Shown here: piece by piece, positions 10,964 through 50,565 of the stretch | Position numbering within the stretch: position 1 is the stretch's first letter | How the letters are laid out: every line of letters starts with the position of its first letter | From: Antedon mediterranea | Taxonomy: Eukaryota; Echinodermata; Crinoidea; Comatulida; Antedonidae | Direction: 5' to 3' | DNA: 64,000 bases | Assembly (NCBI RefSeq): GCF_964355755.1 | Contig: NC_092675.1 | Span: 20,474,912 to 20,538,911, forward strand | Notes under the pieces: model-generated | Told to the model about the DNA's origin: nothing | The model's input: only the letters and a program-made list of their open reading frames with translations | Databases searched by the model: none | Made by a program: the position numbers and the translations under genes

Positions 10964-13900
10964 ATGGCACCGTCAATGAGTAAACTTTTGTATAGCCCAA
11001 CGTCGGCTGTAGCAATATCAAGTGCTTTTAGCATATATTACTTAGCGAAAAGATTGGATAATTCGAAGGACAACAAAGGGAGGCGGAAACGAACTGAAAG
11101 GTAACACTTTTATTTAGGCTAGGCCTAGGCCTAGCTAGGCTAGCCCTTAAGTAGGCTAGATAGCCTAGGCCTAGATGCCTATCTTGCACGCCGCCAGGTA
11201 GACAGGTTGTTACCTGGCGTGACCAACTTAACTGTCATGCCGGCGGCGGCTGGGGATTCCCTGGCATTAACCGACGTGATTCTAGACTGTGCAGTAGGCC
11301 TAGCTAGGCTTATGCGGCTGCCTACAATATAAATTTTTCTTTCGATTTAAAAATTGATTATTTTTTAGTACTTAACATTAAAAGAATTTGTTTTGTTAAC
11401 CTATTCTGTTTTGTTGATTGATGCCGTGCCTTGTTTATGATTTTTTAATGTTACCTGGAAATTGAATAAAATAAAATAAAATAAAAAAAATTATTTGCAA
11501 TGTCATTGGCAATTGCTTGTTGTGTTGTAGGCCTATGGTGCCTAGTCTAAAATAGTAAAATTAGGCCTAGCTAGGCCTATAGCTTTACCTATTGTTGATA
11601 TTATTATTTAATTTTATGATTGTGTTAAAAAATTTAACAAAATAATATGGATATTTTTTACAGGCTCTTTAATCTGCAGGTACATTGATTCATAATATAA
11701 ATAATTACGTTTAAATATGCATGCATATCTATTTTTAATAAATAAGTATTTAATTAAGTACCAGCAACATGGAGTGGTATTATTGGTAATACTATTGTAT
11801 AAGCAAGTAACTGCACCTCACACAATTTTACTAAATGAAACTCTTTTTTTTTTTATTTCAGTATATCAGAAATCCCTGTGGTGCTTCAGGTATAAATCAT
11901 TACTGTTTTTTGGGTAACAATAACATTTTAACAAATAATATGACATAATATAGTAAATCAGACCTGCCAACCCATGGGTCATAAATGAAATTGCTAAAAA
12001 AAGTTCCCAGATTGAATATTACCAATGACGAAAAAAAAAACAACTATAACTCTAACTATTTGCTATCTTAAATCTGCCCGGCCGTTAGTGGCAACATTCA
12101 ATTAAAAAATATGTTAAATTTTTTTTGTGACGGAAGGGACATAAATATACCTGACATTCTTTTGACCCATTTTCCATTTAGAAAATTTGTTTGTTTTTTT
12201 TAGGGAGGAAAATCAAAAGCACAATCAAAAGAAAAGGCTGCTGTAGATTCTGTATTTTTCAGGTAAGACTTTTAGCAAAAAGTATTATCCAAAATCTACA
12301 CAAATTGTTGTTTTCTGTATAATTGACAGTGAATAACATATTCATAAAATAGAATAAACACTGTAAGCATTCTATTGTATGCCTGCAAAAACTTACAATG
12401 TTAAGAATCAATTAACACATTAGTATTAAGTACCTGTTCCGTTCTATTCAAGATTCAAGAAATTTTATTTGTCCATAAAAATGGAAATTCACTTTGCTTG
12501 GTAGATTAAAACAACAATATTGCAACAATTTAAAAACGTGCAGTATTATAACAGATTAAAAATACAAGATAAAAAGTTAAAAATACTGTTAAAAATGTAA
12601 AACTATTAAAAATTGCATTAACGTCTTACATTAGAATTAAAAATTGCATTAACGTCTTACATTAGAATTAAAAATATGAATGCTATTTACAACGAAGGAT
12701 TTTCTAGTTCTACAAAGATTTGCTCTTGGAGGTCGTAGCCTAATGCCTGATCTATTTAAGTTATAACAATGTAACGGATGAGTGGGGTCTTTCATAATAT
12801 TGTTTACTTTTTTTTTAGAATACTCTTTTCATATATAAATGAACAAGGCGTAAGATCAGCTTTAATAATACGTTGTGCAATTTTACGTGGTCTCTCAATA
12901 TTTTTCTTATCATTATCTTTCTATGCTATTATCTGAAGTAATACTAGTTCCTATGTATTGATTTCAATTTTTTTTTTACATTTTTTTTTAACCATATTTT
13001 AATGAGGGTAATCCATCCATCCATTGCTGATCATTAGGGACCCTCAGAGGTTCACAAGACAAACATATACAAGATGCTCTACATAAACAAAGTCTTAGGG
13101 AGTGGAGTTGTAATTTTTTCCTTAGAAAAAAATCCTGACATGTGACAGGACTTGAACCCAGGACCCATAAATTTGAATTTCATTTCAAATAAACATTTAT
13201 TTTCTTTTACATCATATAAAATAGAAAACAAGATATACTGGTATAATATGTAACAGCAGCTCTCTTTTATAAATATGTTTTTTTTCATTTTGTAGACGAT
13301 TATTTTCAATTATTAAGATATTAGTACCAAGGTTAAAATGCAAAGAAGTAAGTATTTTCCAAGTTTGTTTATTTGGTAATACATACTGTATATATATACA
13401 GCTTATTTTGATATGACGTATATAACATCACATGGGTATTGTTTTACTTTCATATGCATATGAAAGTCTGTTCCAACGTAACATTGAGGTGCCGTGCAAA
13501 CATTTGAACTAACTGCGGGCTGGTAGCATGAAATCCGAAAATAACCTTAAAACATTAATATTTAATATCCAAATGTTGAATTAACCACATGTCACTTTTA
13601 AGTTGCTTTAACTTTTTAAAACTAATTTATGTTCATATTATATATACAGTCTGTGTTCTACATGTTTTATTTGGAACATTCTGTTTAATTACTACTCTGT
13701 TGATACTCCTTATAATTTATGTAGTGGCAGTAAAAAATAATTGGTAGGTTATTTTAATATCCTGTTAGATTATAGATTATTCACATAGGGCTTTTATTGG
13801 TCAAGTGGTTTAAATTGTTAAATTGTATTTTACAAAAGATTATGGCGTGCAGGATTAAGAATTTCTTTTTAAATCATACATACTTGTCCTTGACTTTTGT

Positions 13901-16900
13901 TTTTCATAGAAAACTATAATGTATTGTATTAGATGGACTTTAGTAGTAGATTCTTATTTATAGATTTGGGTTTTTTTTTTAGAAATGTATTAAAATATTA
14001 TTATTTTGAAAAGGTGTGCTACAAATTACACTCCTCAACATACTGTATGTGCTGTAGGTATGCTGTTTGTATCTTGGTGTGTAGAAGCCTACAAAATTGA
14101 ATTGTAAATGTAAATGGCACACATTTATGTGTGTGATTGCACTCGCATGCCTCAATCTCTTACGGGTGTATAGATGTGCTAAGAGAGGCCTGAGGTCCGA
14201 GATAGATCACACTAGATTGGATCACTGTCTCGAAAAGCGGACCTCTGGAAATAATACTTTCTCAAAATTTGGACCGGTCATGTGGAACGAACTCCCGTCT
14301 GTGATCCGGGAACAAACCACGGTTCTAAAATTTAAAAAAGCCCTCAAAACACATCTATTTCCTAAGAAGTGACTCATTGTTGGGTCTGCTGATGTAAAGC
14401 GCTTTTATCATTTTATACTAATTTGGAAAAGCGCTATATAAATAAAATAAGAATAATAATAATAATATTAAATGAAATGTTGTTACATAATAATAATAAT
14501 AATTCCTGTATACAAATCATAAAACTGTTATTTTTACTTTTTTTTTTATTTAAACAAAAATGTTATTCTGTCAAGGGGTTCCAAAAGAAGCCAAAAATCT
14601 TCTAAACAAGGATTAAGCGTGTCACTCAAATTTAATGGTTACAATTTTTGTTTTCAGACATTTTATTTACTAATAGTGGCTGCTTCCTTGGCTGCAAGAA
14701 CATATTGTGATGTTTGGATGATTCAAAATGGAACTGCCATAGAAAGGTACATTTTGGGTTTTGTAATTAGCAATACTATAATTAAAAATTAACAAACAAT
14801 ACTTACTTCTTGGTCTAGACTCGGATATCCAAGTGCAAAGAGCTCTATCCCAATCTATGAGAAAAGTCAAGAGACCAACAGGAGGCCCCAAACTCGCCCC
14901 CAGAATCTGGCTATGAAAAAAAAAATAAATAAGTCTATGTGCACACCCTGGGCAATACTCACTCTGATTGGAGGAGTTAAGTGCGGTATGTCATAAGACG
15001 TACTGTACAGTGTTCATAATGACTTACTATTCACAATACATATTCATTTAATTATTTATGCTCTTGTAAATGAAACAATGCATAATTTTTTGCTAAATAA
15101 GAATTTAAATCATCTTTTATACTTTTTCTTTTAGCTCTATAATTGGTCGAGATGTTGGCTTATTCAAGAAATATCTTTTTAATTTCATTTGTGCCATGCC
15201 AGCTGTAAGTATTCTGAAAGGTGTCAGACTTCACCCATTGTTTATTATCGAACATATGTAGGTAGGCCTAGGCCTAGTCAATTTGGTATTGGATATCCCA
15301 GATGGTGTACGCTCAAAGATTTTAATATTATTATTATTACCTTATACAGCGACCTCTATATAATTGTTAATTATTATAGCACACCCTCTATTGTTTATCC
15401 AAACATTTTTTTTTTTCAACTTGGGTCCTCTGGTATGTGTAGTATCGAATCAAATTGGCCATTAATTTTAATTGTTCATTCATTCTTTTTTCAGATATCA
15501 CTGATAAACAACTTGCTAAAAGTAAGTCTAAATTTTAATTTGCAATTACTTGTAGAAACAATAATAATTAATTATATAGAAGATTGGACATATTGTTATT
15601 GCTATTGCCTCTTTTTAATACCTTTTTTAAACAATAATTATTTTGTTTTTTTAGTATGGATTGAATGAAGTAAAGTTATTATTCAGAACAAGGCTGACAT
15701 CATTCCTCTATGATCAATACCTCAGGTAATTTTAATAACACATACATAAGTTATATTATATTTAATAATCAAACTTTTATGTACTCTTGTGATGTAGAAG
15801 CGTTAGGCCTGGCATATTCCTAGTCTGCGTTATAACTAAGAATCACTTGGGTGTTTTTAATTGTTAGTTTGACATCATTTAAGTGGTTATTTGAGATTTG
15901 TTCCATTTCTTCTGCTCAGAAACTTATTCAAATTCTCTCAGCAGAAACAACCTCTTGCTGCTGTTTTATTCATTTAATTCCCTCTGCATTGGCTTGCTAT
16001 TATATAATTTTATTACATAAACAAACATATCATATTTCCTAATGCCGTAATTATTTACAGAGGGTTCACATACTACAAAATGAGCAACCTTGATAATCGT
16101 ATAGCAAATGCTGATCAGCTATTAACGCAAGACGTGGAGAAATTCTGCAACAGTGTAGCTGATTTGTACTCAAACTTAAGCAAGGTAAATATCTTTATAA
16201 TATACAACTCATCTGTTTGTATTTTAAGATTATGTTTAACATCAATAAATATTTAAATTAACACAAGCTCAGAATAAATTGTTAAAATGTAGGTAATTTA
16301 GAAAGGATATCAATAAATATTTAGACATTAAAGTAGTTTGACAAAAAAGTGTGATGTGCCTAAATATGGTAGTGATATGCTAAAAAATGATATAACATCA
16401 TCATGTCCATTATGGGCACATCAAATTTGTTTGTCACATAACATTTGATAATGTAAACAGAGCTTAAGATTTGTTATCGGGAGTGTATCCAGCACTAAAG
16501 CCCTGTCTACACTATCAAATTTATGTGACCAAAAAATGTGATGTGCCCATTTATGGACATGAGGATGTCATATCACTACCATATTTGGGCACATCACACG
16601 TTTTCAATCTATTTTGACAGTGTAGACAGAGCTTAAGAGTGCGTACTCCTCCATTTTGACAGTTTAAATGAAATTATGAACTACTTTTTGATACTATTTT
16701 TGACAGACTTTTGTATGTTAGCGCTGCCCCATTAAATAAATCTTGGCCATATTATAAAATTCAAAATGCTGTCCTTTGGAAATCACAATTTTGATATTTG
16801 GCAAACCATAATTTGGAATTCTATACTTATTTCTTCTTCAGCCCTTACTTGACATCTTGATCTACACCCGTGTATTGGCATCATCTATAGGTGCTCAAGG

Positions 16901-19900
16901 GCCAGCTTTCATGTTGCTATACTTAGCTATATCTGGCCTAGTACTTACAAGGTATGTTGTATTCATAATACTTGCCGATTCATATTTTTAATTATCTTTA
17001 ATCAACAACTCGTAGATGTCAATTAAATCAGTTATGTTACTCGTTGTCATTTGTGGTCAGATTCTGCTTAGCAGAAAATATTTGTTGCCATTAATTTTAC
17101 TGCAGTCTGTTATCAAAGTCAAAATAACCTAAGCCACACCTGACCTAAGCAAGTATTTTTCCGGAAATATTGGATGATGTTAGAGTCCATTTTATAATCT
17201 AAATAGAACTGGTTTGATAGATAAAATGGCTTTGTTTTTCATTTAAGCACATTTTAACTATCCTGACTTAAGCAAAAATATGTATAAGGTCCAGCCCTGA
17301 TGGGGACTAATTATGCATACAGTTTTAAAATGAAGCAATCCACTTTTATAAAAAAAAATGTCTTCACTGCAAATATATAATATCGCATTCAATTATGATT
17401 TCATTTTTGACTGATAGACTACGTAGGCCTGTTGGCAGGATGACTGTACAGGAACAACAGTTTGAAGGAGAGTTTCGATTTGTCAATTCTCGCTTGATTA
17501 CAAACAGTGAAGAAATTGCCTTCTATCAAGGTAACAAGTGTGAAAGGAGGACTATTTATCACACGTTCAAGAAATTGGTATGATTGTGTTGTAGCTCTTT
17601 AAATACTCTATGTGGTATAATTCTGGTTGAAAGCCTTTTAAACCAAGAAATATGGAATCATTTTGTTACATTAATTATATACATTAGCCCCATGACATTT
17701 GCAATAAGTAACACACCCTCCTTGTGTTTAGAAGATATCCGAGTAGAACAAGCAACATGCAGTTAAAAAAGGTTGTCTTTTTATTGGATAACAATGTATC
17801 TTCTGATGTTTTGCCTTGCCATACTAAATTAGAATCTTCAGAACCAAACCTATTTTGTATAAGGTTTTTCTGTACAATATAACTATTAAATTACCTTGCA
17901 GTTGATAGAACTTAAAATGCTAAATTGTATCCATGAAATATTTTTTGGAGATATTTCATTTATGTCAGAACTATAACATGTCAAAACATTTCTTTAATTT
18001 TTCACCATTTTTTTTAGGTTGATCATTTACATCAGTTTATTTTCTTCCGCTTCTCAATGGGTTTTATTGACAACATAATTGCAAAATGTAAGTTAAAATT
18101 GCAATTTAAGTTGATGTTTACTTAAGATGTCCCTGTGACCTGGTTCAGAGTCTCATTCTATCAATCCATCATCAAATATTGATTATTTTTCTTTGGTGTT
18201 GTCTGCTTATTAATATCTGTGAGAACTTAGTACACTTTTTTTTCTTTTATCACTGTCATATTTCTTTATTTGCTACTGACCATTTGAACTGACAAGTAGC
18301 ATGGTATACTATTATAATCTTTTTAATTGTGTTTATTGACTTTCTTTTGATAGATATTGCAACTGTTGTTGGGTATCTTGTTGTTAGTAGACCATTCCTA
18401 AACCTACAGCACAAACCATTCTTGCATCTTAATCACTCAGAAATCATGGAGGTAAGTTGTAGATTATCAATACATTAGAAAAATGTACATAAGATTTATA
18501 TCATAAATATAATGACTAGTGTGTAAGGTGCATTAAGGGTAGGTGAAAATAGGGGTGCCCTAAAGGAAGAGTTCTACTGTAGTACTACCAGTCATATTAA
18601 ATGGTACAGTATGTTACATTCACCTAAAAGTTATTTTGTTCAGAATAAAAGAAATGTTTTTTGAGGATAAATGTATTGTAAATAGAGCAGAAATCTTATA
18701 CAAAAATGATACTACTTAAAACCTTATTTTACCCATTAAATCTTATTATTTATATTATTTTAATATTGTTAATTATACTTCTCCTTGAAAACTTACATAA
18801 CTTTGATAATTTTTTTAATGTATTTTTTATTTATTATGTAACAATGTATTTTGTTTTTAATGACAATTTTAGTCAAACCTCCTTTTAAAAAAAATATCTA
18901 TTATATAGTATAAGTGACTTGTTTAATTTACTGCAATTAAAACTAGATGTTATTACACTATATATAACTGGATGTAATAATACATTGTCTTTAATATTTA
19001 TTGTTATTTAAATTTCTAAATCTGTTCAATAAATAATCGTCTATTACTTTATTTAGACATACTACAGATCAGGTTACATGCTTTTTAGAATGGCCATGTC
19101 AATAGGTCGTTTAGTACTTGCTGGCCGAGAGGCCATAAGGCTGGCCGGGTAAGTTGTCAGCCACGCAATGCCTATCCTTATGTATACTTTAGTGCATCGT
19201 TCTAACATTTGTGTTTGTGTATTTCATGTTTATCGGCCTAAAGGGCTGGCTGTATGTTTTAGCATGACTGTAGCTATTGCGTTTACTGCAGTATATTTGT
19301 TATTTACTCCAGATCTATCTATCTATCTATTTGATACTTGGTCTATGAGTCTTTATTTTTTTGTTCGGGAGTTTAAGAGAACTAAATATATACTAAATAT
19401 TTGTATGTAATTAACCTTGCAACAATTTGTATACAAAAACTATAATTTTTGTTAGATTAACAATATTGTGCAGTAGATATTAAACTGCAATAAATTTACT
19501 GTTAACAAATTACTGCAGTAATTACAATCACTACAGATAAATTTAGCAATTTTTAGATCATACATAACTAATTACAATGAATTATAACAACATCATTTCA
19601 TTTTGTCATCAACTAGGAATATTATCAGGCGGGGAGAATGTTGTTACGTATGGCTCAGGCAGTCGGGAGAATTGTTCTCGCTGGACGAGACATGACACGA
19701 TTATCAGGGTGAGTGTTTAATTGGAGTTTTAGTGACAAAATTGTGCTGTTCCCGACTGCCAAAGTGAATACTTTAAATGATTTGAGAATTGTATGAAAAC
19801 ACTAACATATTTACACTAAACACTACTGTTTTGTTTGCTTTTGTAATGTACTGTATTGTAATTTAGTGCTTTTAATATTGCTTTATTCAATTGTAATGTG

Positions 19901-22900
19901 ACATGTTGACATGTATTGCGAAAAGTGACATTGTGACATTATCTGCTTGCTAGCAATCCTACCTTTTCAGCACACTAAAGTTTGTTGTTATTTTAAAGCT
20001 CTGTCTACACTCTCAAAAAAATTTGATGTGCCCAAATATGGTAGTGATATGCCCATATATGGTAGTGATATGCTCAAATATGGTAGTGATATGCTCAAAT
20101 ATGTTAGTGATATGCCCAAATATGGTAGTGATATGCTCAAATATGGTAGTGATATGCTCAAATATGGTAGTGATATGCCCAAATATGTTAGTGATATGCC
20201 CAAATATGATAGTAATATGACATCATCATGTCCATATATGAGTACATCACATTTTTTTTGTCACATAAAGTTTGATATTGTAGACATAGCTTAACACAGT
20301 ATACAATGGTATGGTGTATAATGTTGGTAAATTGATTATTCTGCTAATGTTGTTCATTTTTTTATCAACTGCTCAAAAATAGTGAACATCCTTTTAAAGT
20401 GAGCTATGACATTGTTTAAGGAACCAGGCTATTGACTGTTCAAGTCATGCTTGCAGAGCAAATAGTCTTAATTTTTGCTGTCTTTAACTTCCTTCATGGT
20501 CAAAGTTGACGATATATGAACAGGGTTCAAATATGTGGTATTTTTATTGATTATTTTTGTCTCCAATACAAAAGGTTTACAGCTAGGGTTACAGAACTAA
20601 TTACTGTACTGAAAGACTTGAACACTGGACGCTATGAACGTACCATGGTATCAGCTACGGGAAAAGGTATTACAATGTTTATGCAAAGTTAAGCTGTGTT
20701 TTGTATAGCAATGATGATAATGCAGGGGTGCCGAAAACAGCTTGAATGAGGGCTGAGTGTATTAAAACTAGTTCTTGTCTGGCATGTGGCTTGATAAGTC
20801 TACTTAATTCCACGATCATGCATTATCTGAGCTTAATTAGCATATATTATTCTAGTGTTACTTAGTATAGCTTAATACAGTACTTTTTTTCTTTTATAAT
20901 TTACAAAACAATTTCATAGATGATAAAGTAAGTTAGTAAAAGTAAAGTATAGATAAAACATACAGTACATAATAGCATAAATTTATATAAATTTCTGTTT
21001 TTCTTGTGCCCTCTTCAATAGCCTAATGTTGTATTTTTCTTCCTTTAGATTCTGATAGTGAAGAGGACAGTGAACCTTTAGTACCAGGAAGTGGAGAAGT
21101 TATATTTAAAGATGATGTTATAAGGTAATAGAGAGAATATGGTAGTATGAGCAGGTGTGGCTAAATTGCTACATTGAAATGTTACATTTTAGTGTTAGGT
21201 TGGATAGTAAGTAATGTAATCAGCAATGCAGAAAGCATGGTATATACATTTACTAATTTTTACTTCCAAATGTAAAAAAATCCTGAATCGTCCATTTTTA
21301 TAATATTATACGGACACCTTCAAATCAATAATCTTCTTCCAGAATTCAACATTTGAAATTGTAAATTTAACACAGTGGAACCGTAATTACGTAGCCATTA
21401 TATCGGCAAGGGTTCGGGGCTCACTCGCTCCATGGTTCTGGTGGTAGAACAAGTCTTCTCGGATAAGGACTATAAACCGTAGGTCCAGTGTACACATCAA
21501 GCTCATGTGCACTTTAAAGAACCTAGTACATCTTTCGAGACGAGTAGGGGGTTACCCCGGTGTACTAGTACATCACAGCCACTGATCATCAACTGGGCCC
21601 TCTGGGAGACCAGACCAGTCTTTGACTGAAGAGGTCGCACAGTATAAATATAAATAAATAAATATTTAAAAACAGACATGGGATACATTATTTAATATTT
21701 TAAAAGCAACATATAAGAACATCAAAAATACTATAAACATTACTTATTCAAAGTTGTCTATTTTTGATAATTTTCATTCTTTATAGATTTGATAATGTAC
21801 CTCTTGTGACGCCAAATGGTGATGTACTTGTTAAGGGCATGACCTTTGAGGTCACTCGTGGCATGAATGTACTTGTATGTGGACCAAATGGGTGTGGAAA
21901 GAGCTCACTCTTCAGAATTCTAGGAGAGGTATAACATTTTATTATACAGTACTGTCAATTTATCCTATTAATATCTGTTTGTATACTTTGGGCATATTGA
22001 AAGACTGTAGTAAGAATGGGACTGCAATATACAAAACTAGAATACGGTTTTATGTATATTTAATACTTTTTTTTCTCTCTTAATGGTAATTTTTTTTTTA
22101 AACCAGGAGAAATGATAGATGACTCCAAATGACCACATTTATCCACTCCATTTTTGTGATATTTAATTGGTTGGTTTAATACTTAATTTTGTCTTTATAT
22201 TTTTAGCTATGGCCATTGTTTGGTGGTACAATGACAAAGCCTGAAGCTTGTAAGCTGTTCTACGTTCCACAGGTTTGTATTTTGTAAAGCTATGTCTACA
22301 CTATCAAACTTTATGCGACAAAAAAAAATGATGTGCCCATATATAGACATGAGGATGTCATATCATTACCATATTTTAACACATCGCACTTTTTTGTGTT
22401 TGATAGTGTAGCTTTGCTGTACCATTTTGAGAGTTTGAGAGCCATCAAATTAGAACTAGGATAGTTCCCAAATTTGTGGGTATGTGTATAACAAGTTTGA
22501 AAGTTCGATTCATCATTATATCTGTATATTTCTTTACCTGTTATTTGTAATTGTAGAGACCATACATGACATTAGGAACACTACGTGATCAAATCATATA
22601 TCCAGATACTAAAGAAGATATGATGAGAAAAGGAGTTACTGATCAACAATTAGCAGAGTCAATGGAAAAGGTAAATAGTTCAAACAGGTTGTTATTAATC
22701 CCATGTCCAAGTTTAAGCTCTGTCTACACTATCAAACTTAATGTGACAAAACAATTTGATGTGCCCATATATGGACACTATGATGTCATATCACTACCAT
22801 ATTTGAGCACATCACACTTTTTTGTCAAACTAGTTTGATAGTGTAGACAGCGTTTTAGATAGTATAGCAGTGCTATCCATTTAATAACAAAACACTCAAG

Positions 22901-23623
22901 TATAACCTTGCCATTTGATTGATTTATTGCACATCATGTGCATTATTTTGTTCTATTCAATGATAAAGTGAGATTCAATGGTTCTATTTAATAACCATTT
23001 GTTTGTTTACTTTTAAGGTTCAACTTGCAAACATTCTTGATCGTGAAGGAGGATGGGAGGCCATACAAGACTGGATGGATGTGTTGAGTGGAGGAGAGAA
23101 GCAGAGAGTTGCCGTAAGTAATTGTATAGTTTTTTTGTGATAGTACATTTAGAATAGCTGTACATTAGAATAGTTGTTTACATGTGTTTTAAGCTATGTC
23201 TAGTTTGACAAAAAAGTATGATGTGGCCAAATATGGTAGTGATATGACATCATATATGGGCACATCACGTTTTGTTGTTACATAAAGTTTAGCTTGGTGA
23301 TTGTTACGTAGAAAGTTTTTGTTTTATTTAGTAATTTGCCTTTGAATTATTATATTAATTATGATTATCTTTAATATTTACAGATGGCACGTCTTTTCTA
23401 TCACAAGCCCCAATTTGCTATCTTGGACGAGTGTACGAGTGCAGTTAGCGTTGACGTTGAGGGCTACATCTACAAACACGCCAGGGAAGTCGGCATCTCG
23501 TTGTTTACGGTCTCTCATCGCAAGTCACTGTGGAAGTACCACGAGTTCTACCTGCAGTTTGATGGACGTGGCGCGTATGAGTACAAGCGTATAGAAGACA
23601 ACACGGTAGAGTTTGGCTCTTAA
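10964..23623 (+). CDS. ABCD3: ATP-binding cassette subfamily D member 3 (PMP70), 21 exons
   Basis: Peroxisomal half-transporter for import of fatty acyl-CoAs and bile-acid/branched-chain acyl-CoAs. Exons: 10964-11100, 11862-11889, 12204-12262, 13296-13347, 14658-14746, 15135-15204, 15495-15521, 15655-15725, 16061-16184, 16842-16951, 17418-17577, 18018-18087, 18354-18451, 19617-19708 (or alternative 19057-19148), 20575-20666, 21049-21124, 21787-21928, 22207-22272, 22557-22670, 23018-23113, 23384-23623. Total is 670 aa against about 659 in human. All phases match, including small exons of 28 and 27 nt. An EAA-like stretch, [14 protein letters not shown], lies near residues 280-293. The ATPase domain has Walker [10 protein letters not shown] (about 484-492), signature LSGGEKQR (about 582-589), Walker B FAILDE (about 602-607) and switch His in SHR (about 636). 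It ends NTVEFGS, like vertebrate PMP70. The N-terminal 75 residues are divergent. Confidence 0.95.
13005..13170 (-). mobile_element. tRNA-derived SINE (family B), antisense copy in ABCD3 intron
   Basis: Reads on the minus strand. The B-box complement GGACTTGAACCCAGGA (near 13149) and body complement AATCCTGACATGTGACAGG match the element at 3949-4183, and the tail complement TGATCATTAGGGACCCTC lies near 13029. The tRNA head is truncated upstream of the B box. Confidence 0.65.
14110..14465 (+). mobile_element. 3' end of a non-LTR (L2/CR1-like) LINE
   Basis: Up to the stop at 14372 the frame encodes a reverse-transcriptase tail, with [14 protein letters not shown] followed by [12 protein letters not shown], the usual C-terminal signature of L2/CR1-type elements. 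It is followed by AAGCGCTATATAAATAAAAT and an (AAT)n tail, the typical LINE 3' terminus. The copy is 5'-truncated and sits in an ABCD3 intron. Confidence 0.7.
16333..16468. mobile_element. TAC-family MITE in ABCD3 intron
   Basis: Contains TTTGACAAAAAAGTGTGATG at the left and a degraded AATGTAAACAGAGCTTA right end. The left terminal repeat is incomplete. Confidence 0.65.
16497..16637. mobile_element. TAC-family MITE in ABCD3 intron
   Basis: Both ends are present: AAAGCCCTGTCTACACTATC at the left and GACAGTGTAGACAGAGCTTA at the right. It lies only about 30 bp from the preceding copy. Confidence 0.8.
19057..19148 (+). CDS. ABCD3: ABCD3 alternative exon 14a (candidate mutually exclusive exon)
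   Basis: 92 nt with acceptor TTATTTAG and donor GTAAGT, in the same phase as the exon at 19617-19708. It encodes 31 residues homologous to that exon: [17 protein letters not shown] then [13 protein letters not shown], against [17 protein letters not shown] then [13 protein letters not shown]. Because 92 is not a multiple of three, splicing both exons shifts the frame and meets TGA within the second. Skipping both also breaks phase. Exactly one must be used per mRNA. The segment is the region just before the ATPase domain (residues 366-396), likely the last membrane helix and its cytosolic extension. This copy is the more diverged from human PMP70. Confidence 0.8.
19617..19708 (+). CDS. ABCD3: ABCD3 exon 14b (canonical version)
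   Basis: 92 nt with acceptor AACTAG and donor GTGAGT. The encoded stretch is nearly the vertebrate PMP70 sequence ([19 protein letters not shown]), so this is taken as the default exon in the 670-aa model. It lies 468 bp downstream of the related exon 14a. Confidence 0.88.
19997..20294. mobile_element. TAC-family MITE with an internal 21-bp tandem expansion
   Basis: The ends match the family (AAAGCTCTGTCTACACTCTC; right end TTTGATATTGTAGACATAGC). The usual single GGTAGTGATATG segment is expanded to about nine copies of a 21-bp unit of the type AATATGGTAGTGATATGCTC. The period is a multiple of three, so long but meaningless reading frames run through it on both strands. Confidence 0.85.
21395..21662 (+). 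mobile_element. Retroelement 3' fragment with TAAATA tail
   Basis: Contains CTCGGATAAGGACTATAAACC and AAAGAACCTAGTACAT and ends in ATAAATATAAATAAATAAAT. I recognise this kind of sequence as a dispersed 3'-terminal retroelement module in marine invertebrate genomes; exact family not determined. It lies in an ABCD3 intron. Confidence 0.5.
22287..22420. mobile_element. TAC-family MITE in ABCD3 intron
   Basis: Left end AAGCTATGTCTACACTATCA, interior GGACATGAGGATGTCATATC-like, right end TGTTTGATAGTGTAGCTTTG (degraded). Confidence 0.75.
22715..22857. mobile_element. TAC-family MITE in ABCD3 intron, near full length
   Basis: AAGCTCTGTCTACACTATCA at the left; AACTAGTTTGATAGTGTAGA plus CAGCG at the right. 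It is one of the best-preserved copies and close to the family consensus of about 140 bp. It starts about 45 bp after the donor of exon 22557-22670. Confidence 0.85.
23192..23294. mobile_element. TAC-family MITE, partial, in ABCD3 intron
   Basis: AAGCTATGTCTAGTTTGACA joins the two ends of the usual left arm (an internal deletion). It continues GGTAGTGATATGACATCATA and ends near CATAAAGTTTAG. Confidence 0.65.
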
Positions 23624-36100: not shown

Positions 36101-37654
36101 AATTAATAAAGAAATAAATGTTATTATCAACGTAGCAATACAGTGAAGTACAAACAAATGAATCAGTTTGTAAACTGTACCTTTCATTTAATTTTAACTC
36201 GATAATTTGGAGAAAATGAAATGAAATTATAAATAAGACTTTATACAAATATTGAATACTGACTTTGTTTACATAGGCATATTCACTTTGAACTTGGAGA
36301 TGAAACGTTAGGCCTAAATGCGCGCCACAATGTATAATTAGCCTTAGCTAACAGCATTTCGTAGATAGAAAGGTATCAGCTTTTTACATTGTTCAGAATG
36401 TTCAAAATTATTGTCATCAAATGATGATTGTAAATACATGATAGATTTTATATTATATAAATAGGATAAACTATTTTTTTTAATTAAAAAAATAAATATG
36501 ATTAACTATATGAAAACAATAATTGATAAATAAAGTTGAACTTCAAACTCCGAGAATGAATGTTCTATTATACCGGCCTCATTCTCACTTCTAAATCTAC
36601 TTTTGACGAAACAAAGATGGAACAAGATCATTATTTATTTAATCTAACCTCCGTGCTCTCTTCCGATTACCACACAACCGAGACAGAACACCAATCCATA
36701 ATCAAATCAACCCCCTTATTCTTACCTCCCGCTTATGTCATCGTAAAAACAAATGTATAGTTTATATTAGGTTTTGTAAAACCAAAATATTACACCAATT
36801 AAATAATACTAATAAAAATAATTGAAAAAACATAATAAAAGTGATCTTTAATTGATGACGTTATCCTTACATTTAAGCGTACAGTATACAATAGTTACAG
36901 TGTATTATATTTTAAATTAACATAATATAATTTTGTTACGACTATTATAAAGTGCTAAGTAAGATGCTTTTTATCCATAAAATGGAGATTTTCCATAACT
37001 AGTAGGCTAATGGGAACGAGTACGTTTTATCATGCATAATGATTCAAACGTCTTTTCCACTAATGGGTTCTGCTATACCCGTCACAGTTATTGCGATTGT
37101 ATTTATGTTAAGAATAATAAGAAGTAGATGATTTGCAGGATTGAAAATGACAACAATTTAATGTAGTCACGTCTACTCTGAAATTAAATTAAGTTCACAA
37201 AGTGTTTGCAGAATTGTAATAGACAATACTCACATCTAATAAAATACAATTTAGTTAAAGTCAGGAATATATTAAAATATATGTAGATTGTACAATAATG
37301 CATTGATACGTTTTACAAGATGTAAAAACAAAAATGTGAAACACAGAGGAATAAAGCTATGAAGGACCATTTTTGTTAACTTACTGGCCTGATAAAGTAG
37401 CCAAAGTTTCTAAATAATATAAATATATAAATGAGCACAGTTTAAATTGTGTTTATGGGATTCTTTTGCTCTCTGATGTTATTTTTTTCATTCGGCAATA
37501 TTATTTGATAATTTATGTGTGTATTCAGCCTGAATATTTAGTTATGGATTTCAGTTCATTCAATCATCAATAATTCATCCACCAAGCACATTTTGTTTCT
37601 AATTTAAAAGATTATTGAACTATGTTTAAATATGAGATAATGTAGTTTAATTTT
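33102..37654. other. Gene-poor AT-rich region between carrier and minisatellite
   Basis: Expected to include the first exon and promoter of the SLC25 carrier, which I could not place. A GTAAG donor on the minus strand at 33147 is a candidate. Otherwise it holds a threefold 119-bp repeat (34743-35090), a SINE-tail piece near 36043 and AT-rich sequence. Reading frames of 60-82 codons here look random. Confidence 0.4.
34743..35090. repeat. Tandem repeat, three units of 119 bp
   Basis: Units begin at GTTCGTTTAATCGTT at 34745, 34864 and 34983 and end in ATATGGTTTGTTGTATCTTT. The first two are nearly identical; the third is more diverged. Confidence 0.9.
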
Positions 37655-39440
37655 GTTGTCAATTTTACCTGGAGTTGGTCCTAGACTTTGTAAGCTGTGT
37701 TGGATTTTGTTGTCAGTTTTACCTGGAGTTGGTCCTAGACTTTGTAAGCTGTGTTGGATTTTGTTGTCAATTTTACCTGGAGTTGGTCCTAGACTTTGTA
37801 AGCTGTGTTGGATTTTGTTGTCAGTTTTACCTGGAGTTGGTCCTAGACTTTGTAAGCTGTGTTGGATTTTGTTGTCAATTTTACCTGGAGTTGGTCCTAG
37901 ACTTTGTAAGCTGTGTTGGATTTTGTTGTCAGTTTTACCTGGAGTTGGTCCTAGACTTTGTAAGCTGTGTTGGATTTTGTTGTCAGTTTTACCTGGAGTT
38001 GGTCCTAGACTTTGTAAGCTGTGTTGGATTTTGTTGTCAGTTTTACCTGGAGTTGGTCCTAGACTTTGTAAGCTGTGTTGGATTTTTTTGTCAGTTTTAC
38101 CTGGAGTTGGTCCTAGACTTTGTAAGCTGTGTTGGATTTTTTTGTCAGTTTTACCTGGAGTTGGTCCTAGACTTTGTAAGCTGTGTTGGATTTTTTTGTC
38201 AGTTTTACCTGGAGTTGGTCCTAGACTTTGTAAGCTGTGTTGGATTTTGTTGTCAGTTTTACCTGGAGTTGGTCCTAGACTTTGTAAGCTGTGTTGGATT
38301 TTTTTGTCAGTTTTACCTGGAGTTGGTCCTAGACTTTGTAAGCTGTGTTGGATTTTGTTGTCAGTTTTACCTGGAGTTGGTCCTAGACTTTGTAAGCTGT
38401 GTTGGATTTTGTTGTCAGTTTTACCTGGAGTTGGTCCTAGACTTTGTAAGCTGTGTTGGATTTTGTTGTCAGTTTTACCTGGAGTTGGTCCTAGACTTTG
38501 TAAGCTGTGTTGGATTTTGTTGTCAGTTTTACCTGGAGTTGGTCCTAGACTTTGTAAGCTGTGTTGGATTTTGTTGTCAGTTTTACCTGGAGTTGGTCCT
38601 AGACTTTGTAAGCTGTGTTGGATTTTTTTGTCAGTTTTACCTGGAGTTGGTCCTAGACTTTGTAAGCTGTGTTGGATTTTTTTGTCAGTTTTACCTGGAG
38701 TTGGTCCTAGACTTTGTAAGCTGTGTTGGATTTTTTTGTCAGTTTTACCTGGAGTTGGTCCTAGACTTTGTAAGCTGTGTTGGATTTTGTTGTCAGTTTT
38801 ACCTGGAGTTGGTCCTAGACTTTGTAAGCTGTGTTAGATTTTTTTGTCAGTTTTACCTGGAGTTGGTCCTAGACTTTGTAAGCTGTGTTGGATTTTGTTG
38901 TCAGTTTTACCTGGAGTTGGTCCTAGACTTTGTAAGCTGTGTTGGATTTTTTTGTCAGTTTTACCTGGAGTTGGTCCTAGACTTTGTAAGCTGTGTTGGA
39001 TTTTGTTGTCAGTTTTACCTGGAGTTGGTCCTAGACTTTGTAAGCTGTGTTGGATTTTGTTGTCAGTTTTACCTGGAGTTGGTCCTAGACTTTGTAAGCT
39101 GTGTTGGATTTTGTTGTCAGTTTTACCTGGAGTTGGTCCTAGACTTTGTAAGCTGTGTTGGATTTTGTTGTCAGTTTTACCTGGAGTTGGTCCTAGACTT
39201 TGTAAGCTGTGTTGGATTTTGTTGTCAGTTTTACCTGGAGTTGGTCCTAGACTTTGTAAGCTGTGTTGGATTTTGTTGTCAGTTTTACCTGGAGTTGGAC
39301 CTAGACTTTGTAAGCTGTGTTGGATTTTGTTGTCAGTTTTACCTGGAGTTGGTCCTAGACTTTGTAAGCTGTGTTGGATTTTGTTGTCAGTTTTACCTGG
39401 AGTTGGTCCTAGAATTTGTAAGCTGTGTTGGATTTGTTTG
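37655..39440. repeat. Minisatellite, about 33 copies of a 54-bp unit
   Basis: The unit is TTTTACCTGGAGTTGGTCCT, AGACTTTGTAAGCTGTGTTG, GATTTTGTTGTCAG. Copies are almost identical; variants alternate GATTTTGTTG with GATTTTTTTG, and units 1, 3 and 5 have TCAA for TCAG. The 54-bp period keeps plus-strand frames open for up to 620 codons, but these frames are an artefact. Each unit contains a polypyrimidine-CAG and a GTAAG 27 bases apart, resembling a tiny exon. The array ends about 320 bp before the GPCR coding exon. Confidence 0.95.
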
Positions 39441-39761: not shown

Positions 39762-40871
39762 ATGGAGACTACATTCTGGAATTCATCAGGATACGGAGCA
39801 AATGATGTTCTAACTACCGAGGCAACAACAGTGTGTGAAACGGTTTATCACGACCAACTAAATTATTACATGTATTCAAGTCTGGACCGCTGGTTTCTAT
39901 TTTGTTTCTTGCCAACAGTCGTCGCCATTGGTATAATTGGTAATATCATTATAATTACTCTTATCACAAAAGACAAAACTCTCCGCACATCCCCAAACAT
40001 GTATCTACTAGCTCTAGCCGTATCGGACATTATTTATCTCTTGTCGGAAAATCTACGAGGCTGGGTCCAGTATGCCACTAGCCCTGTTCAAGCCGATTCA
40101 TCGGGTATACCTTTTGGTGTACTCAAATTGTTCTTGTTTACACGTAGCTCGAGTATTTTAGCATCGTGTTTTATCATAATAGCTGTAAGCTTTGATCGTT
40201 ATTTTTGCATTTGCAAGCCCATGAGATCTTTGACATCCACAAAGAAAACAGCAATTAAGGTATGCATCGCTATATGGCTGCTGACGTCTTTATACAGTAG
40301 TCGTATGTTCTTTACTGCTCATCTGGAGAAAAAGTGCATAATATGGCCCGAAAGCGATGGCATAGACTTTCCGGAATATGTAATGTATCTGTATTCATGT
40401 GATCCAACAAGAGGATCATGCGTGACATTGTTTGTAACTGAGCAGCTACTGGTTCTTATAGTTATTCCAATATCAATCACTCTACACATACTTATGATCA
40501 TGGAACTGCGACGTGTTGGCCAAGATCACATCTCAGAAGATTCCGCACGCGCAGCGCACGAAGCAAAAGCCCGTATGATAAAGATCTTGATGACAATCGT
40601 GGTGATATATGCGTTCTGTATGGCACCATATCGGCTGTTAAACCTATTTCAACATTTTCTAGATCTAAAATTGCCAAGTAATTTTTGGATTATATATTAT
40701 ATCAATCGAATTCTAGCCAGTTTAAACAGTTCTGTAAACCCGATTGTTTATGGATTAATAAGCAAGAAGTTTAGACACGCAATAAAGAATATCTGCTTCC
40801 CACCGCAAAGTTTGGTGGCAACAAGATCTAAAAGACGGTCACACAATGCAACGGTTTGCAGCAAGATTTAA
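39762..40871 (+). CDS. Class A (rhodopsin-type) GPCR, probable peptide receptor
   Basis: A single coding exon of 369 residues immediately after an acceptor (TTTTTTTTATAG), so at least one 5' non-coding exon lies upstream. Seven hydrophobic helices are visible, with class A landmarks N61 in GNIIII, LALAVSD (D89), DRY at 145-147, W172, P236 in VIPIS, P289 in FCMAPY and NPIVY at 326-330. NSS at 7-9 is a possible glycosylation site. The N-terminus is short and the tail is basic. The usual disulfide Cys at the top of helix 3 (about residue 121) is Leu here. Overall pattern is closest to short-tailed neuropeptide receptors (galanin, TRH, FMRFamide type), but no subfamily or ligand can be named. AATAAT/ATAAAA occurs just after the stop. 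Confidence 0.88.
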   Translation: METTFWNSSGYGANDVLTTEATTVCETVYHDQLNYYMYSSLDRWFLFCFLPTVVAIGIIGNIIIITLITKDKTLRTSPNMYLLALAVSDIIYLLSENLRGWVQYATSPVQADSSGIPFGVLKLFLFTRSSSILASCFIIIAVSFDRYFCICKPMRSLTSTKKTAIKVCIAIWLLTSLYSSRMFFTAHLEKKCIIWPESDGIDFPEYVMYLYSCDPTRGSCVTLFVTEQLLVLIVIPISITLHILMIMELRRVGQDHISEDSARAAHEAKARMIKILMTIVVIYAFCMAPYRLLNLFQHFLDLKLPSNFWIIYYINRILASLNSSVNPIVYGLISKKFRHAIKNICFPPQSLVATRSKRRSHNATVCSKI

Positions 40872-41742: not shown

Positions 41743-42855
41743 GAATACATCAAACTATATTTGGATTCGATATAATTCTGCAATGGGAAACAGGGGCGGA
41801 CCCAGGCAACACCCTTAATTTCAAAATAAATGTTTTTTTTCTGCCACTAAATTAAAATGTTGATCCTATTTCATTGTATACTGTAATCAGTCATCGTGGA
41901 AGATTCTGTATTCATGATACTGCGAATCGCTCTACTAACACTACAGACGACTTACAAGTTCTGCAAATGAATAATAAGACACTAGGTGTTAAATATATAT
42001 TGTAATGAATGAAATGATTTACAAATTATAAGCATGCGTTTCATTTTATTTTAAAGAAAGTCTTGTAATTTATTTATAAAATTGATTTATTTGTAACAGC
42101 AGCAAAATAATTAATAATAGAGTAAGAGCATTTTTTAAACAAGCATGGCTATTGCTTTCCCCAGGTACATACATTTTTTGTCTATCTTATTCTTCTTTCT
42201 TTCCCGGAATTTTATTGGCAACGTATCTCTAATTCTGGTCAACATATGATTGTATAACTTTGTCATAAGATTGACCTGTAGCTGTAGATGTGCAAGAAAC
42301 TTCGTTATATGACGTTGATTTATACCATTTGCGCGCGTTTTAGTTGAAAAAGTTAGAAATATTGTCAAAATAATGCCAATTTTGAATCTATTATAGCTCC
42401 TCAGTTTTCTGGAAGCATGTCATAGGATGGCATAATAATTGTCGACGTTTATAATAGTTTAACGTATGTGCATGTTGCATTTCCGCGGATAACCCGAACT
42501 CGTCAAAGTGACGAGTTTAAATCTAGTTATTGTTATTATTTAAAATATTAAACTACTACTATAAACGGTAGATCTTTGTAGTAATGATAGTGTTAAATTA
42601 ACAAGTTATAGGCCTAGGTTATTCATAGAAATACATTGTACTAATATTAATAAAAACTAATATTTCATTTTAATAGTAAGTTAATCTATTATAATAGTTG
42701 AGACGATTTTGAAATTATAACACTTCTAGATGGTCGATTGGTTGGTTGGAAACTGAGGTACTAGCCTATTAAAGGGTGACATTTTCACCATAGGCCTATT
42801 TTGAGTAAAAGCGTCACAACATAGCGCTTCGCGCAAGACGTGATCGTTTGTGCAC

Positions 42856-43035
42856 ATGGCGGAAAAAGGTGCTTGTCCAGGGCCGTCGACAGGACCTGTG
42901 GCGAAGCGAACCTTGTTAAATGACGCCCAAGATGCCCGGAAATGGTACCGTACTCTCGCGCACATAAAATTCATGATAAATAGCACCTCTAATTTGAAGG
43001 AAAATACACTCTCAAATGTAGCATGCTACCAATGA
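42856..43035 (+). CDS. Possible small exon/ORF with good start context (copy 1)
   Basis: GCACATGGCGG gives a strong start context in a locally CpG-rich patch. The frame encodes MAEKGACPGPSTGPVAKR, then a basic/aromatic stretch DARKWYRTLAHIKF, and closes after 59 residues. No family recognised. It could be the first exon of a lost gene or chance. Confidence 0.2.
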   Translation: MAEKGACPGPSTGPVAKRTLLNDAQDARKWYRTLAHIKFMINSTSNLKENTLSNVACYQ

Positions 43036-43394
43036 GCAAAACGATCATACCTTTTCCCTCTAATCACGTGACTAATTACAGAATGATATATAACATTTTG
43101 TTGCCGATTTCATTCACTTCAGTATTTAACAATTGCGTTGCGGTCAGTTCAATGCGAACGTACATTTAGGGGAAGCCCCGAAAAAAGAGCAAATTTTAAT
43201 GCTTTTTATAGCTCAATATTTATTTACATCAATTTGTAGAAGAAATTAAATATATAGAAAAAAATCGATTGCTATAATGTATATACTACATCACACAGTT
43301 ACCAGTTAGTGTACTATATTATTATTAACATATTTATTTATTTATTCTCATATTAGGCAAATTGCCAAGGATAACCAAAAGTGAATTTATTCAC

Positions 43395-43620
43395 TATCCT
43401 TCTCAAAGGTGGCAATCCCATTCACATGACAAACATATACACAAGATGCTCTAAATAAACAAAGACTTAATATTCTTTGGGAGTGGAGTTGTTAATTTTC
43501 ATGAGAAAAAAACCCTGACATATGACATGACTTGAACCCAGGAGCCTTAGATTTGTAGCCAAGCATCATAACCACAGCTCCACTTCTATCATAACCACCA
43601 AGCCACAGCTCCACTTCTAA
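43395..43620 (-). mobile_element. tRNA-derived SINE (family B), antisense, copy 1
   Basis: B-box complement GACTTGAACCCAGGAGCC, body complement AACCCTGACATATGACATG and AAGATGCTCTAAATAAAC match the families at 3949 and 13005. The head is partly duplicated (CATAACCAC ... AGCTCCACTTCT occurs twice). Confidence 0.7.
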
Positions 43621-44783
43621 AATGTCCAGGGGATTCAATCATTTTAGGCATACCAGCTAAAATACCACGATTCTATATTCTCATCTTTCATTCTGTTACA
43701 TATACACCACCTAAATAAATACATTCAAATGTTACAGATACTTAAATGTGCTATTGGTTATGTTTGCATGTAAATTTTCTGGTGCATCCAGCAAAAAGAT
43801 TTTGCTTCGGCCGATTTTCATTTAAGAAAAGAATAAAAAGTCCTCTTTGATAATATATACAGTAACTTGATGAGTTTGTAAGATAGTTCCATCAAAACGT
43901 ATTCATGAAAAGACAAGACAGATAAAATAAATGCCATATCTGTAAGCAAGGTAAGACTCAACGTTAAAGTAACAACTAGTCTGTGGTCACTTGGTATTAC
44001 CTTCTTGGGTATAGGTTCCAGTACATGAAAAGAAAAAATAATTATAAAGTGTAAACAAAATACATATTTGCATGGTTAAAATTTCACAAGCTAGACTCGA
44101 ATTTAACTGTGGCTGGTGGTTGCACCTGAAATATTACAACACCATCTTAAAATTATTGGTGATGAGTTGTTTCCCGTAGATGAAAAGAAAAAAATATATA
44201 AAGTATAAACAAAATACATAATTGTATTGTTGAAATGTCACAATCTAGACTTGAATTTAACTGTGACTGGTTGTTTTACCTGAAATATTAAAACCCCATC
44301 TTTAAATTCTTGGTTATGAATTTGCGAATTCATAAAAAGAAAAAAAGAATTTCAAAGTATAAACAAAACAAGCATTTATATATTTGTAAAACGTTTAATT
44401 TAATTTTAAAAGCTAAAATGGAATTTTCAAACATCAACCGTCAGTGGTTGTATTTACCTAAAATGTAATGTAAAACGCATAGGCTAATTCAACTAGCATT
44501 TGTAGGCTATATTTTTACTCGGGGTACCCGAGTCTAGTACTTACTCATTTTCTCCTTCTCTTCCTCCATCTGGACACTATTGAGTAAAAAGTGCGATTTT
44601 TAAAGTACTACTCCTCCCTTATTCGTTATAGTATTGAGCTGGGATTTGGCATGAACATACTACAGGGACATGTCCTCAAAGCTATAGAGCCGGATTTTTA
44701 ATTTTTTGTTAATTAATTTGTTTAATTAAGAAGCCACAATGTGTGACACACACCACAGCGTTATGTAGTTATATGGTTATATG

Positions 44784-44853
44784 CGGATTCTTGGCGTAGT
44801 GGTTATCACGTTTGCTAAACACGCAGAAGGTACCTGGTTCGAGGACGAAACCT
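44784..44853 (+). pseudogene. tRNA-Val-like sequence 1, degenerate (copy 1)
   Basis: TAGTGGTTATCACGTTTGCT, an AAC anticodon in a CTAAACACGC context, and TGGTTCGAGG resemble tRNA-Val(AAC), but the acceptor arm does not pair. Confidence 0.5.
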
Positions 44854-45065
44854 TTTTTTTAAACTTTATGGTGAAAAGTACTGTATACGCAATATGATAA
44901 TTATACAGAGTATATCTTATTTTTATTATTTTTTAAAATACTTATTTTGTGTAATCGGTAATTATCACTTTTACACATGTTTATTTTGCTTTGTGCTTAT
45001 TACCATTTATTTGTAATTTAAATGGATTAAAAAACTTTCTGTAACCCACATTTTTAATGTAAGAG

Positions 45066-45135
45066 GTTTCGTAGTGTAGTGGTTGTCAAGTCTGCTTAAC
45101 ACGCAGAAGGTCCCGGTTTGAGCCCTGGCGAAACC
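45066..45135 (+). pseudogene. tRNA-Val(AAC)-like sequence 2 (copy 1)
   Basis: Acceptor GTTTCG pairs with CGAAAC, the anticodon stem TCTGC/GCAGA carries loop TTAACAC (anticodon AAC), and the A box TAGTGTAGTGGTTGTC is intact. The length is 70 nt with a mismatch in the T stem and in the D stem, so it is probably a relic, or at best a marginal gene. Confidence 0.5.
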
Positions 45136-45889
45136 TATTTTCTTTACTTTCTAACTGTATACGTCTGTATACAGCTTCTTTCGCTGTACCCCGAGTATTG
45201 CACATTCGTGCTTGTTAAAACGTGTTCAGGTTGTTCAGTTTAATTCAAACTCAAATTTATAAAAAAAATGTAATGTCTTTACCTATAATGTTGAAAAATG
45301 TTGCTTTAACATCATCATATCGACTTCTTGTTGATAAGTCTCGCCAAATAATGAAAATAAAGAATTATCATAGTTTTAAACATAATAACATTAAACAATA
45401 CAAATGTGGGTATAACTTGATAAAGGCTCTAACAATTTCGATTGCCTTAGCTAGACTACAGTAATATAACGTGATTAATGTTCATACCTAAAATGTTAAT
45501 ATAGACTTGATTATGTCGTGTCACCATCAGAAAGTATTTATAAAAAAAATAAAAATTATTACACACTTAAAAACAAATAAATGACAGTTTGGTGGATAGA
45601 GTTGTAGTTAATAATTGTGACGCTTTTTACCTAAAATGTTGACAGCTTGGTGTCGATTGTTGATGTGTTCCCCCGTCATGTGTATCAATGAAAAACAAAA
45701 TTTAAAAATAAACACTTTATTAGTTATTGATTTTAGACGTGTATTCATTGTATACAGGCCACCACACAAATAATAATGACTGTATTACACAGCTATAAAC
45801 AAATCAATTTAACGTGTTTTATATTTTTCTGAACAGAGTTTTAGATAAAAATTACGACTGCTCTTACCTTATATTATGTTGACAACATT

Positions 45890-47462
45890 AGAATATGAAG
45901 ATAAAGTGAAGTTAATGTTAATTTGTAGATAATGTGAGAATATGAAGATAATGCAAGAATGTGAAGATAATGTGAGAATGTGAAGATAATGCGAGAATGT
46001 GAAGATAATGCAAGAATGTGAAGATAATGTGAGAATGTGAAGATAATGTGAGAATGTGAAGATAATGTGAGAATGTGAAGATAATGCGAGAATGTGAAGA
46101 TAATGCAAGAATGTGAAGATAATGTGAGAATATGAAGATAATGCAAGAATGTGAAGATAATGTGAGATTGTGAAGATAATGCAAGAATGTGAAGATAATG
46201 CGAGAATGTGAAGATAATGTGAGAATGTGAAGATAAAGTGAAGTTAATGTGAAGGTAATGTGAGAATGTGAAGATAATGCAAGAATGTGAAGATAATGTG
46301 AGAATGTGAAGATAATGTGAAGGTAATGTGAGAATGTGAAGATAATGCAAGAATGTGAAGATAATGTGAGAATGTGAAGATAAAGTGAAGTTAATGTGAA
46401 GGTAATGTGAGAATGTGAAGATAATGTGAGAATGTGAAGATAATGCGAGAATGTGAAGATAATGCAAGAATGTGAAGATAATGTGAGAATGTGAAGATAA
46501 AGTGAAGTTAATGTGAAGGTAATGTGAGAATGTGAAGATAATGTGAGAATGTGAAGATAATGCAAGAATGTGAAGATAATGTGAGAATGTGAAGATAAAG
46601 TGAAGTTAATGTGAAGATAAAGTGAAGTTAATGTGAAGGTAATGTGAGAATGTGAAGATAATGCAAGAATGTGAAGATAATGTGAGAATGTGAAGATAAA
46701 GTGAAGTTAATGTGAAGGTAATGTGAGAATGTGAAGATAATGTGAGAATGTGAAGATAATGCGAGAATGTGAAGATAATGCAAGAATGTGAAGATAATGT
46801 GAGAATGTGAAGATAAAGTGAAGTTAATGTGAAGGTAATGTGAGAATGTGAAGATAATGTGAGAATGTGAAGATGTGAGAATGTAAAGGTAATGCGAGAA
46901 TGTGAAGGTAATGCAAGAATGTAAAGATAATGCGAGAATGTGAAGATAATGTGAGAATGTGAAGATAAAGTGAAGGTAATGCAAGAATGTGAAGATAATG
47001 TGAGAATGTGAAGGTAATGCAAGAATGTGAAGATAATGTGAGAATGTGAAGATAATGTGAGAATGTGAAGGTAATGCAAGAATGTGAAGATAATGTGAGA
47101 ATGTGAAGATAATGTGAGAATGTGAAGATAATGCAAGAATGTGAAGATAATGTGAGAATGTGAAGATGTGAGAATGTGAAGATAATGCAAGAATGTGAAG
47201 ATAATGCGAGAATGTGAAGATGTGAGAATGTAAAGGTAATGCAAGAATGTGAAGATAATGTGAGAATGTGAAGGTAATGCAAGAATGTGAAGGTAATGCG
47301 AGAATGTGAAAGTTATGCAAGAGTGTGAAGATAATGTGAAGGTAATGCAAGAATGTGAAGATAATGCAAGCATGTGATGATAATGTGAGAATGTGAAGAT
47401 AATGTGAGAATGGGAAGATAATGCGAATGTGAGAATTAGAAGATAATGCGAGAATGAGAAAA
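45890..47462. repeat. 19-bp satellite array (copy 1)
   Basis: Units of the type AAGATAATGTGAGAATGTG with GTGAG/GCAAG/GCGAG variants, broken at intervals by AAAGTGAAGTTAATGTGAAG modules. Because 19 is not divisible by 3, the minus-strand frames rotate through the same HYLHILTLSSHS-type peptide; these long frames are artefacts. Confidence 0.95.
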
Positions 47463-47735
47463 TATTGCCCTTGCTGAAAATCTTCTGATTGATAGTAATA
47501 TAATACACATACATAAAAAACAACTAATTATTTTAATACAAAAGTATAATTAATAATACAATTTCTTTATTTGTGTTTTAATCATCTTCACACTATTTTC
47601 TCACAACTTATGTTTTTATATTTTTGCTTTGTCTATCGTTTCCAGTAATTTGTATTTATAATAAAAACATTTACAATAACTACAATTCACAATTATAATT
47701 TTAATACATAAAATGTTTTGAATTCATTTGAGAAT

Positions 47736-47811
47736 TCATTTAAATTCTTCATCATTTATATCATAATCTTTCATTGCCTTCTCTAAGAAAAGCCATCGTC
47801 CAAGAACGCCA
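47736..47811 (-). pseudogene. TIMM29: TIMM29 3' coding fragment left by the duplication
   Basis: Encodes GVLGRWLFLEKAMKDY-DINDEEFK and the stop, identical to the end of the intact gene at 53448-53523. It is cut off at the duplication edge. No upstream part exists here, so it is non-functional. Confidence 0.9.
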
Positions 47812-48567
47812 TAATTAAATAATTAATAATAGAGTAAGAGCATTTTTTAAACAAGCATGGCTATTGCTTTCCCCAGGTACATACATTTTTTGTCTATCTT
47901 ATTCTTCTTTCTTTCCCGGAATTTTATTGGCAACGTATCTCTAATTCTGGTCAACATATGATTGTATAACTTTGTCATAAGATTGACCTGTAGCTGTAGA
48001 TGTGCAAGAAACTTCGTTATATGACGTTGATTTATACCATTTGCGCGCGTTTTAGTTGAAAAAGTTAGAAATATTGTCAAAATAATGCCAATTTTGAATC
48101 TATTATAGCTCCTCAGTTTTCTGGAAGCATGTCATAGGATGGCATAATAATTGTCGACGTTTATAATAGTTTAACGTATGTGCATGTTGCATTTCCGCGG
48201 ATAACCCGAACTCGTCAAAGTGACGAGTTTAAATCTAGTTATTGTTATTATTTAAAATATTAAACTACTACTATAAACGGTAGATCTTTGTAGTAATGAT
48301 AGTGTTAAATTAACAAGTTATAGGCCTAGGTTATTCATAGAAATACATTGTACTAATATTAATAAAAACTAATATTTCATTTTAATAGTAAGTTAATCTA
48401 TTATAATAGTTGAGACGATTTTGAAATTATAACACTTCTAGATGGTCGATTGGTTGGTTGGAAACTGAGGTACTAGCCTATTAAAGGGTGACATTTTCAC
48501 CATAGGCCTATTTTGAGTAAAAGCGTCACAACATAGCGCTTCGCGCAAGACGTGATCGTTTGTGCAC

Positions 48568-48747
48568 ATGGCGGAAAAAGGTGCTTGTCCAGGGCCGTCG
48601 ACAGGACCTGTGGCGAAGCGAACCTTGTTAAATGACGCCCAAGATGCCCGGAAATGGTACCGTACTCTCGCGCACATAAAATTCATGATAAATAGCACCT
48701 CTAATTTGAAGGAAAATACACTCTCAAATGTAGCATGCTACCAATGA
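48568..48747 (+). CDS. Possible small exon/ORF with good start context (copy 2)
   Basis: Identical to 42856-43035; same reservations. Confidence 0.2.
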   Translation: MAEKGACPGPSTGPVAKRTLLNDAQDARKWYRTLAHIKFMINSTSNLKENTLSNVACYQ

Positions 48748-49106
48748 GCAAAACGATCATACCTTTTCCCTCTAATCACGTGACTAATTACAGAATGATA
48801 TATAACATTTTGTTGCCGATTTCATTCACTTCAGTATTTAACAATTGCGTTGCGGTCAGTTCAATGCGAACGTACATTTAGGGGAAGCCCCGAAAAAAGA
48901 GCAAATTTTAATGCTTTTTATAGCTCAATATTTATTTACATCAATTTGTAGAAGAAATTAAATATATAGAAAAAAATCGATTGCTATAATGTATATACTA
49001 CATCACACAGTTACCAGTTAGTGTACTATATTATTATTAACATATTTATTTATTTATTCTCATATTAGGCAAATTGCCAAGGATAACCAAAAGTGAATTT
49101 ATTCAC

Positions 49107-50495: not shown

Positions 50496-50565
50496 CGGAT
50501 TCTTGGCGTAGTGGTTATCACGTTTGCTAAACACGCAGAAGGTACCTGGTTCGAGGACGAAACCT
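50496..50565 (+). pseudogene. tRNA-Val-like sequence 1 (copy 2)
   Basis: Duplicate of 44784-44853. Confidence 0.5.

Follow-up and report, generated by a model that had tools for sequence, protein, structure and literature searches.

Mutually exclusive exon arrays are cited for the metazoan ABCC/MRP transporters in PMC6071210, and mutually exclusive exon events are cited for ABCC9 in PMC9741552. The ABCD3 (PMP70) gene described here resembles these systems in carrying tandemly duplicated exons of an ABC transporter, of which one would be chosen. It differs from them in encoding a peroxisomal half-transporter, whereas ABCC/MRP is another ABC subfamily in which the arrangement is of independent origin. 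Mutually exclusive pairs that are held apart by a frameshift are an established class, collected in a human atlas (Hatje et al. 2017, PMC5740500). As in the ABCD3 pair, the exons of these pairs are homologous neighbours whose length is not a multiple of three, their joint inclusion leads to a premature stop, and their ends are embedded in a helix. The atlas pairs were validated by RNA-seq, whereas the ABCD3 pair is known here from genomic sequence. ABCD3 is absent from the main text of the atlas. In the openly readable literature, a text search linked ABCD3 with mutually exclusive exons only in one cancer review, and we found no description of such exons for this gene; an isoform that is unpublished, or recorded only in annotation, may exist. 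The type of exon pair is known, and ABCD3 as its gene is new as far as we have searched. To our knowledge, vertebrate ABCD3 has one version of the segment in question.

This segment corresponds to human ABCD3 residues 356-386, within TM6, and is the same one seen in structures of human ABCD3 (8z0f, 8z9x, 9ngj and 9w62) and of ABCD1, where its substrate contacts are Gly372, Arg373, Ile374, Val375, Arg379 and Arg383. In human ABCD3 with phytanoyl-CoA, Gly372 holds the pantothenate and Ile374 and Val375 contact the branched acyl tail, while in the ATP state Arg379 and Arg383 bind CoA (PMC11369193). The R373A substitution abolishes substrate-stimulated ATPase activity (PMC11369193).

The window, that is, the whole 64-kb stretch of DNA that was analysed, is AT-rich and carries the ABCD3 gene on its plus strand (Table 1). 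A tblastn search with human ABCD3, a query sequence that PDB alignments confirm for residues 324-413 only, returned a full run of exons, and we placed 19 coding exons between a start at about 10964 and a normal stop at 23623. The product has the half-transporter architecture of ABC_membrane_2 (PF06472, E 2.5e-91) followed by ABC_tran (PF00005) in Pfam. The exon segment was closest to ABCD3 among PDB chains (E 2e-40, compared with 5e-4 for ABCD1). The junction between coding exon 1 (10964-11100) and the next exon (12204-12262) is out of frame; probably, therefore, a small exon in 11101-12203 was overlooked, or else the true start is at another position. A search for a mini-exon between 11101 and 12203 gave no convincing candidate. 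From exon 2 to the stop the spliced reading frame is open with either exon of the pair alone.

Several other features were noted in the window. Its 64 kb contain the octamer TAGGCCTA 24 times, which is far over expectation, and copies are often grouped in short clusters, as at 11120-11572. The intron past the pair holds an element (19996-20292) whose ends are inverted (AAGCTCTGTCTACACT...) and whose interior carries 9.3 tandem copies of a 21-bp unit; since related ends recur in the window, for example at 22294, 22722 and 60631, it is probably a member of a MITE-like family. A 54-bp minisatellite of 33 units (37650-39435), in which several frames are open, lies a short way upstream of an intronless gene for a rhodopsin-type GPCR (39762-40871, Pfam 7tm_1). 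At 42104-53527 a 5712-bp unit is present twice in tandem (42104-47815 and 47816-53527) with essentially no differences; either it was duplicated very recently or the second copy arose in assembly. Within the unit lies a minisatellite that repeats 19 bp about 79 times.

Table 1. Positions in the window of the ABCD3 gene, its exon pair and associated features.
Feature	Position	Strand	Evidence or remark
ABCD3 (PMP70) gene	10964..23623	+	tblastn with human ABCD3, exon model and translation, Pfam PF06472 and PF00005
Upstream constitutive exon	18354..18451	+	98 nt, ends in phase 0
Exon a (14a in the preliminary description)	19057..19148	+	diverged copy of TM6 segment, 31 residues
Intron between exons a and b	19149..19616	+	468 nt
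Exon b (14b in the preliminary description)	19617..19708	+	vertebrate-like copy of TM6 segment, 31 residues
Stem arm 1, GGCAGTCGGGA	19658..19668	+	inside exon b
Premature TGA if both exons are included	19693..19695	+	spliced translation, inside exon b
Stem arm 2, TCCCGACTGCC	19750..19760	+	intron, 42 nt past exon b donor
Downstream constitutive exon	20575..20666	+	enters in phase 2

The preliminary description had recognised two adjacent, homologous 92-nt exons in identical phases, and this arrangement was borne out, although the pair stands at the twelfth of the 19 placed coding exons and not, as numbered there, at the fourteenth. Each is preceded by AG and followed by GT, with phase 0 at its start and phase 2 at its end. 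They matched human ABCD3 separately and significantly in tblastn (E 4e-7 and 1e-10), so the pair is not a chance resemblance. The frame consequences anticipated there also held: inclusion of both exons runs into the TGA listed in Table 1, and omission of both breaks phase, so that translation stops at a TAG (20584) nine bases past the start of the downstream exon. Adjacency, homology, similar length, shared phases and preservation of the frame by each exon alone are among the features by which mutually exclusive tandem exon duplicates are recognised.

An assembly or haplotype artefact might have produced a second copy, and the near-identical 5.7-kb tandem duplication in the same window could be one. 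Exons a and b, however, are only 53% identical in DNA (49 of 92 bases) and lie in different introns without common flanks. This divergence refutes an artefact, for which we see next to no likelihood, and no second ABCD3 locus was found. In the 354-Mb genome (18 contigs), the only other matches to the membrane domain of the family were two loci, one ABCD1/2-like (on C9) and one ABCD4-like (on C10), labels that were assigned by similarity; the ABCD1/2-like paralogue shows a single version of the TM6 segment. The exon region itself matched the ABCD3 locus and the downstream exon of one paralogue, and nothing else in the genome, indicating that there is no retrocopy. A search for relatives in IMG/VR and GTDB genomes yielded no encoding contig.

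We consider that the pair is best explained, with a probability of roughly 0.8, by the tandem duplication, long ago, of a single 92-nt ABCD3 exon whose two copies have been retained for mutually exclusive use, so that the gene would yield two functional transporters with different substrate handling. After this duplication, the mature mRNA would take either exon a or exon b, and the products would be two full-length peroxisomal half-transporters, identical except for 31 residues of TM6. A transcript that contained both exons, or lacked both, would shift frame, stop early and be removed by nonsense-mediated decay.

The divergence between the copies bears on whether both are maintained. Exon b was said to be near-vertebrate and exon a diverged, and their translations agree with this: exon b shares 25 of 31 residues with human ABCD3 and exon a 20 of 31, while a and b share 18 of 31. 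By codon position, identity between the exons is 16/31, 25/31 and 8/30, the last being the random level. In the Nei-Gojobori comparison silent differences are saturated (pS 0.94) and pN is 0.33. When neutral drift was simulated at 1.2 substitutions per site, the expected number of matching residues was about 4 of 30; the observed 17 of 30 was reached in none of 20,000 runs. Neutral decay does not produce such a combination of saturated silent sites and a conserved protein. Judged by this pattern the duplication is old, and exon a is not released from constraint, although this measure averages over all the time since the duplication and would miss a loss of exon a in the recent past.

Exon a could instead be a dead or dying duplicate, unused but still intact in appearance, and with human as reference it carries eight unique changes against three in exon b, a difference that is not significant (P = 0.23). 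Such a duplicate would be expected neither to retain an open frame and good splice sites nor to conserve its contact residues across saturated silent divergence, and the loss would need to be very recent; we regard this explanation as improbable. Exon a may nonetheless have evolved faster than exon b. The distance between a and b (13/31 residues) exceeds that between b and human (6/31), which in a comparison of three sequences fits either a duplication before the vertebrate split or a faster exon a. It is a speculative possibility that the duplication predates the split from vertebrates and that the pair was an old animal device for obtaining two acyl-CoA preferences from one ABCD3, lost in vertebrates.

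In animals, stop codons far upstream of the last exon junction usually trigger nonsense-mediated decay. The premature stops of the double-inclusion and double-skip messages lie 599 and 574 nt upstream of that junction, and both messages should therefore undergo decay. Exclusion would thus be enforced at least at this level through the frameshift of the two forms. Steric interference between the exons was ruled out by the 468-nt intron, which is too long, and a clash of U2 and U12 spliceosomes by both introns being U2-type GT-AG.

The splice sites were compared with a small matrix built from the 17 constitutive introns of ABCD3 itself. Good sites had been proposed for both exons, and this applies to exon a, whose sites are ordinary (its donor beats 7/17 and its acceptor 9/17 constitutive sites). 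It applies less well to exon b, whose acceptor scores lowest of all and whose donor is GTGAGT, although its pyrimidine content is ordinary. The stronger sites of exon a, and the TGA that results when it is spliced together with exon b, would suit a regulatory "poison" exon, whose inclusion with b creates a target of nonsense-mediated decay and lowers ABCD3 output while only b is translated. Such an exon needs no constraint on its protein, yet exon a keeps the identities to b and to human given above and retains the CoA-binding residues with silent sites saturated. We therefore think this role unlikely, and the mutually exclusive pair proposed in the preliminary description has strong support from the reading frame, the phases and length of the exons, their homology and their long-term constraint.

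How the choice between the exons might be made was sought in the RNA. A perfect, GC-rich stem of 11 bp (Table 1) would loop out the donor of exon b. It was equalled in none of 150 shuffles of its intron, and its region has a folding z of -2.1; being one of six pairings tested, it is a lead. Splicing choice would set the ratio of a to b, perhaps through the weaker exon b and this stem. The ABCC/MRP arrays have been linked to competing RNA structures, whereas no clean competing docking/selector structure was found in the ABCD3 gene. A whole-exon duplex scan of the pair was uninformative, and neither exon showed reduced donor accessibility relative to constitutive donors. Counts of splicing-factor motifs gave no distinctive pattern, and an Rfam search gave no match.

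With respect to substrate, Gly372, Arg373, Val375, Arg379 and Arg383 are kept in both versions. In exon a the acyl contact Ile374 is Leu, and further changes are R362Y, L365F and Q369M. ABCD1 numbering is that of ABCD3 plus 28 in our alignment (R401 = R373), so positions 365 and 369 correspond to T393 and D397, which in ABCD1 touch the CoA headgroup or carboxylate (PMC9944889). The ABCD1 acyl-cleft residues A384 and A388 (PMC9177597) are equivalent to ABCD3 356 and 360. The preliminary description placed the divergence of exon a at positions that face the transporter core. R362Y, L365F and Q369M do sit, on a helical wheel, on the stripe that carries the CoA contacts, and two of them align with ABCD1 contacts. 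The residues that grip CoA, however, are unchanged, and differences between a and b are not enriched on the CoA-contact face (4/12 versus 9/19 elsewhere; Fisher P = 0.48) or at known contacts (5/13 versus 8/18; P = 1.0). A sober reading of the alignment is that the CoA grip would be preserved in exon a and a few cavity and acyl-side positions altered. Isoform a would for this reason most likely differ in acyl-CoA preference or kinetics.

How ABCD transporters choose among straight, branched and bile-acid-like acyl-CoAs is an open question on which the pair bears. Hydrophobic residues around the acyl chain have been proposed to decide substrate choice (PMC11369193). The ABCD3 pair offers a natural swap of one substrate-contacting helix with the rest of the protein identical, and with the CoA grip kept and a few cavity positions changed, two constructs would suffice to put that hypothesis to the test. 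The pair would also carry mutually exclusive splicing into the peroxisomal ABC subfamily.
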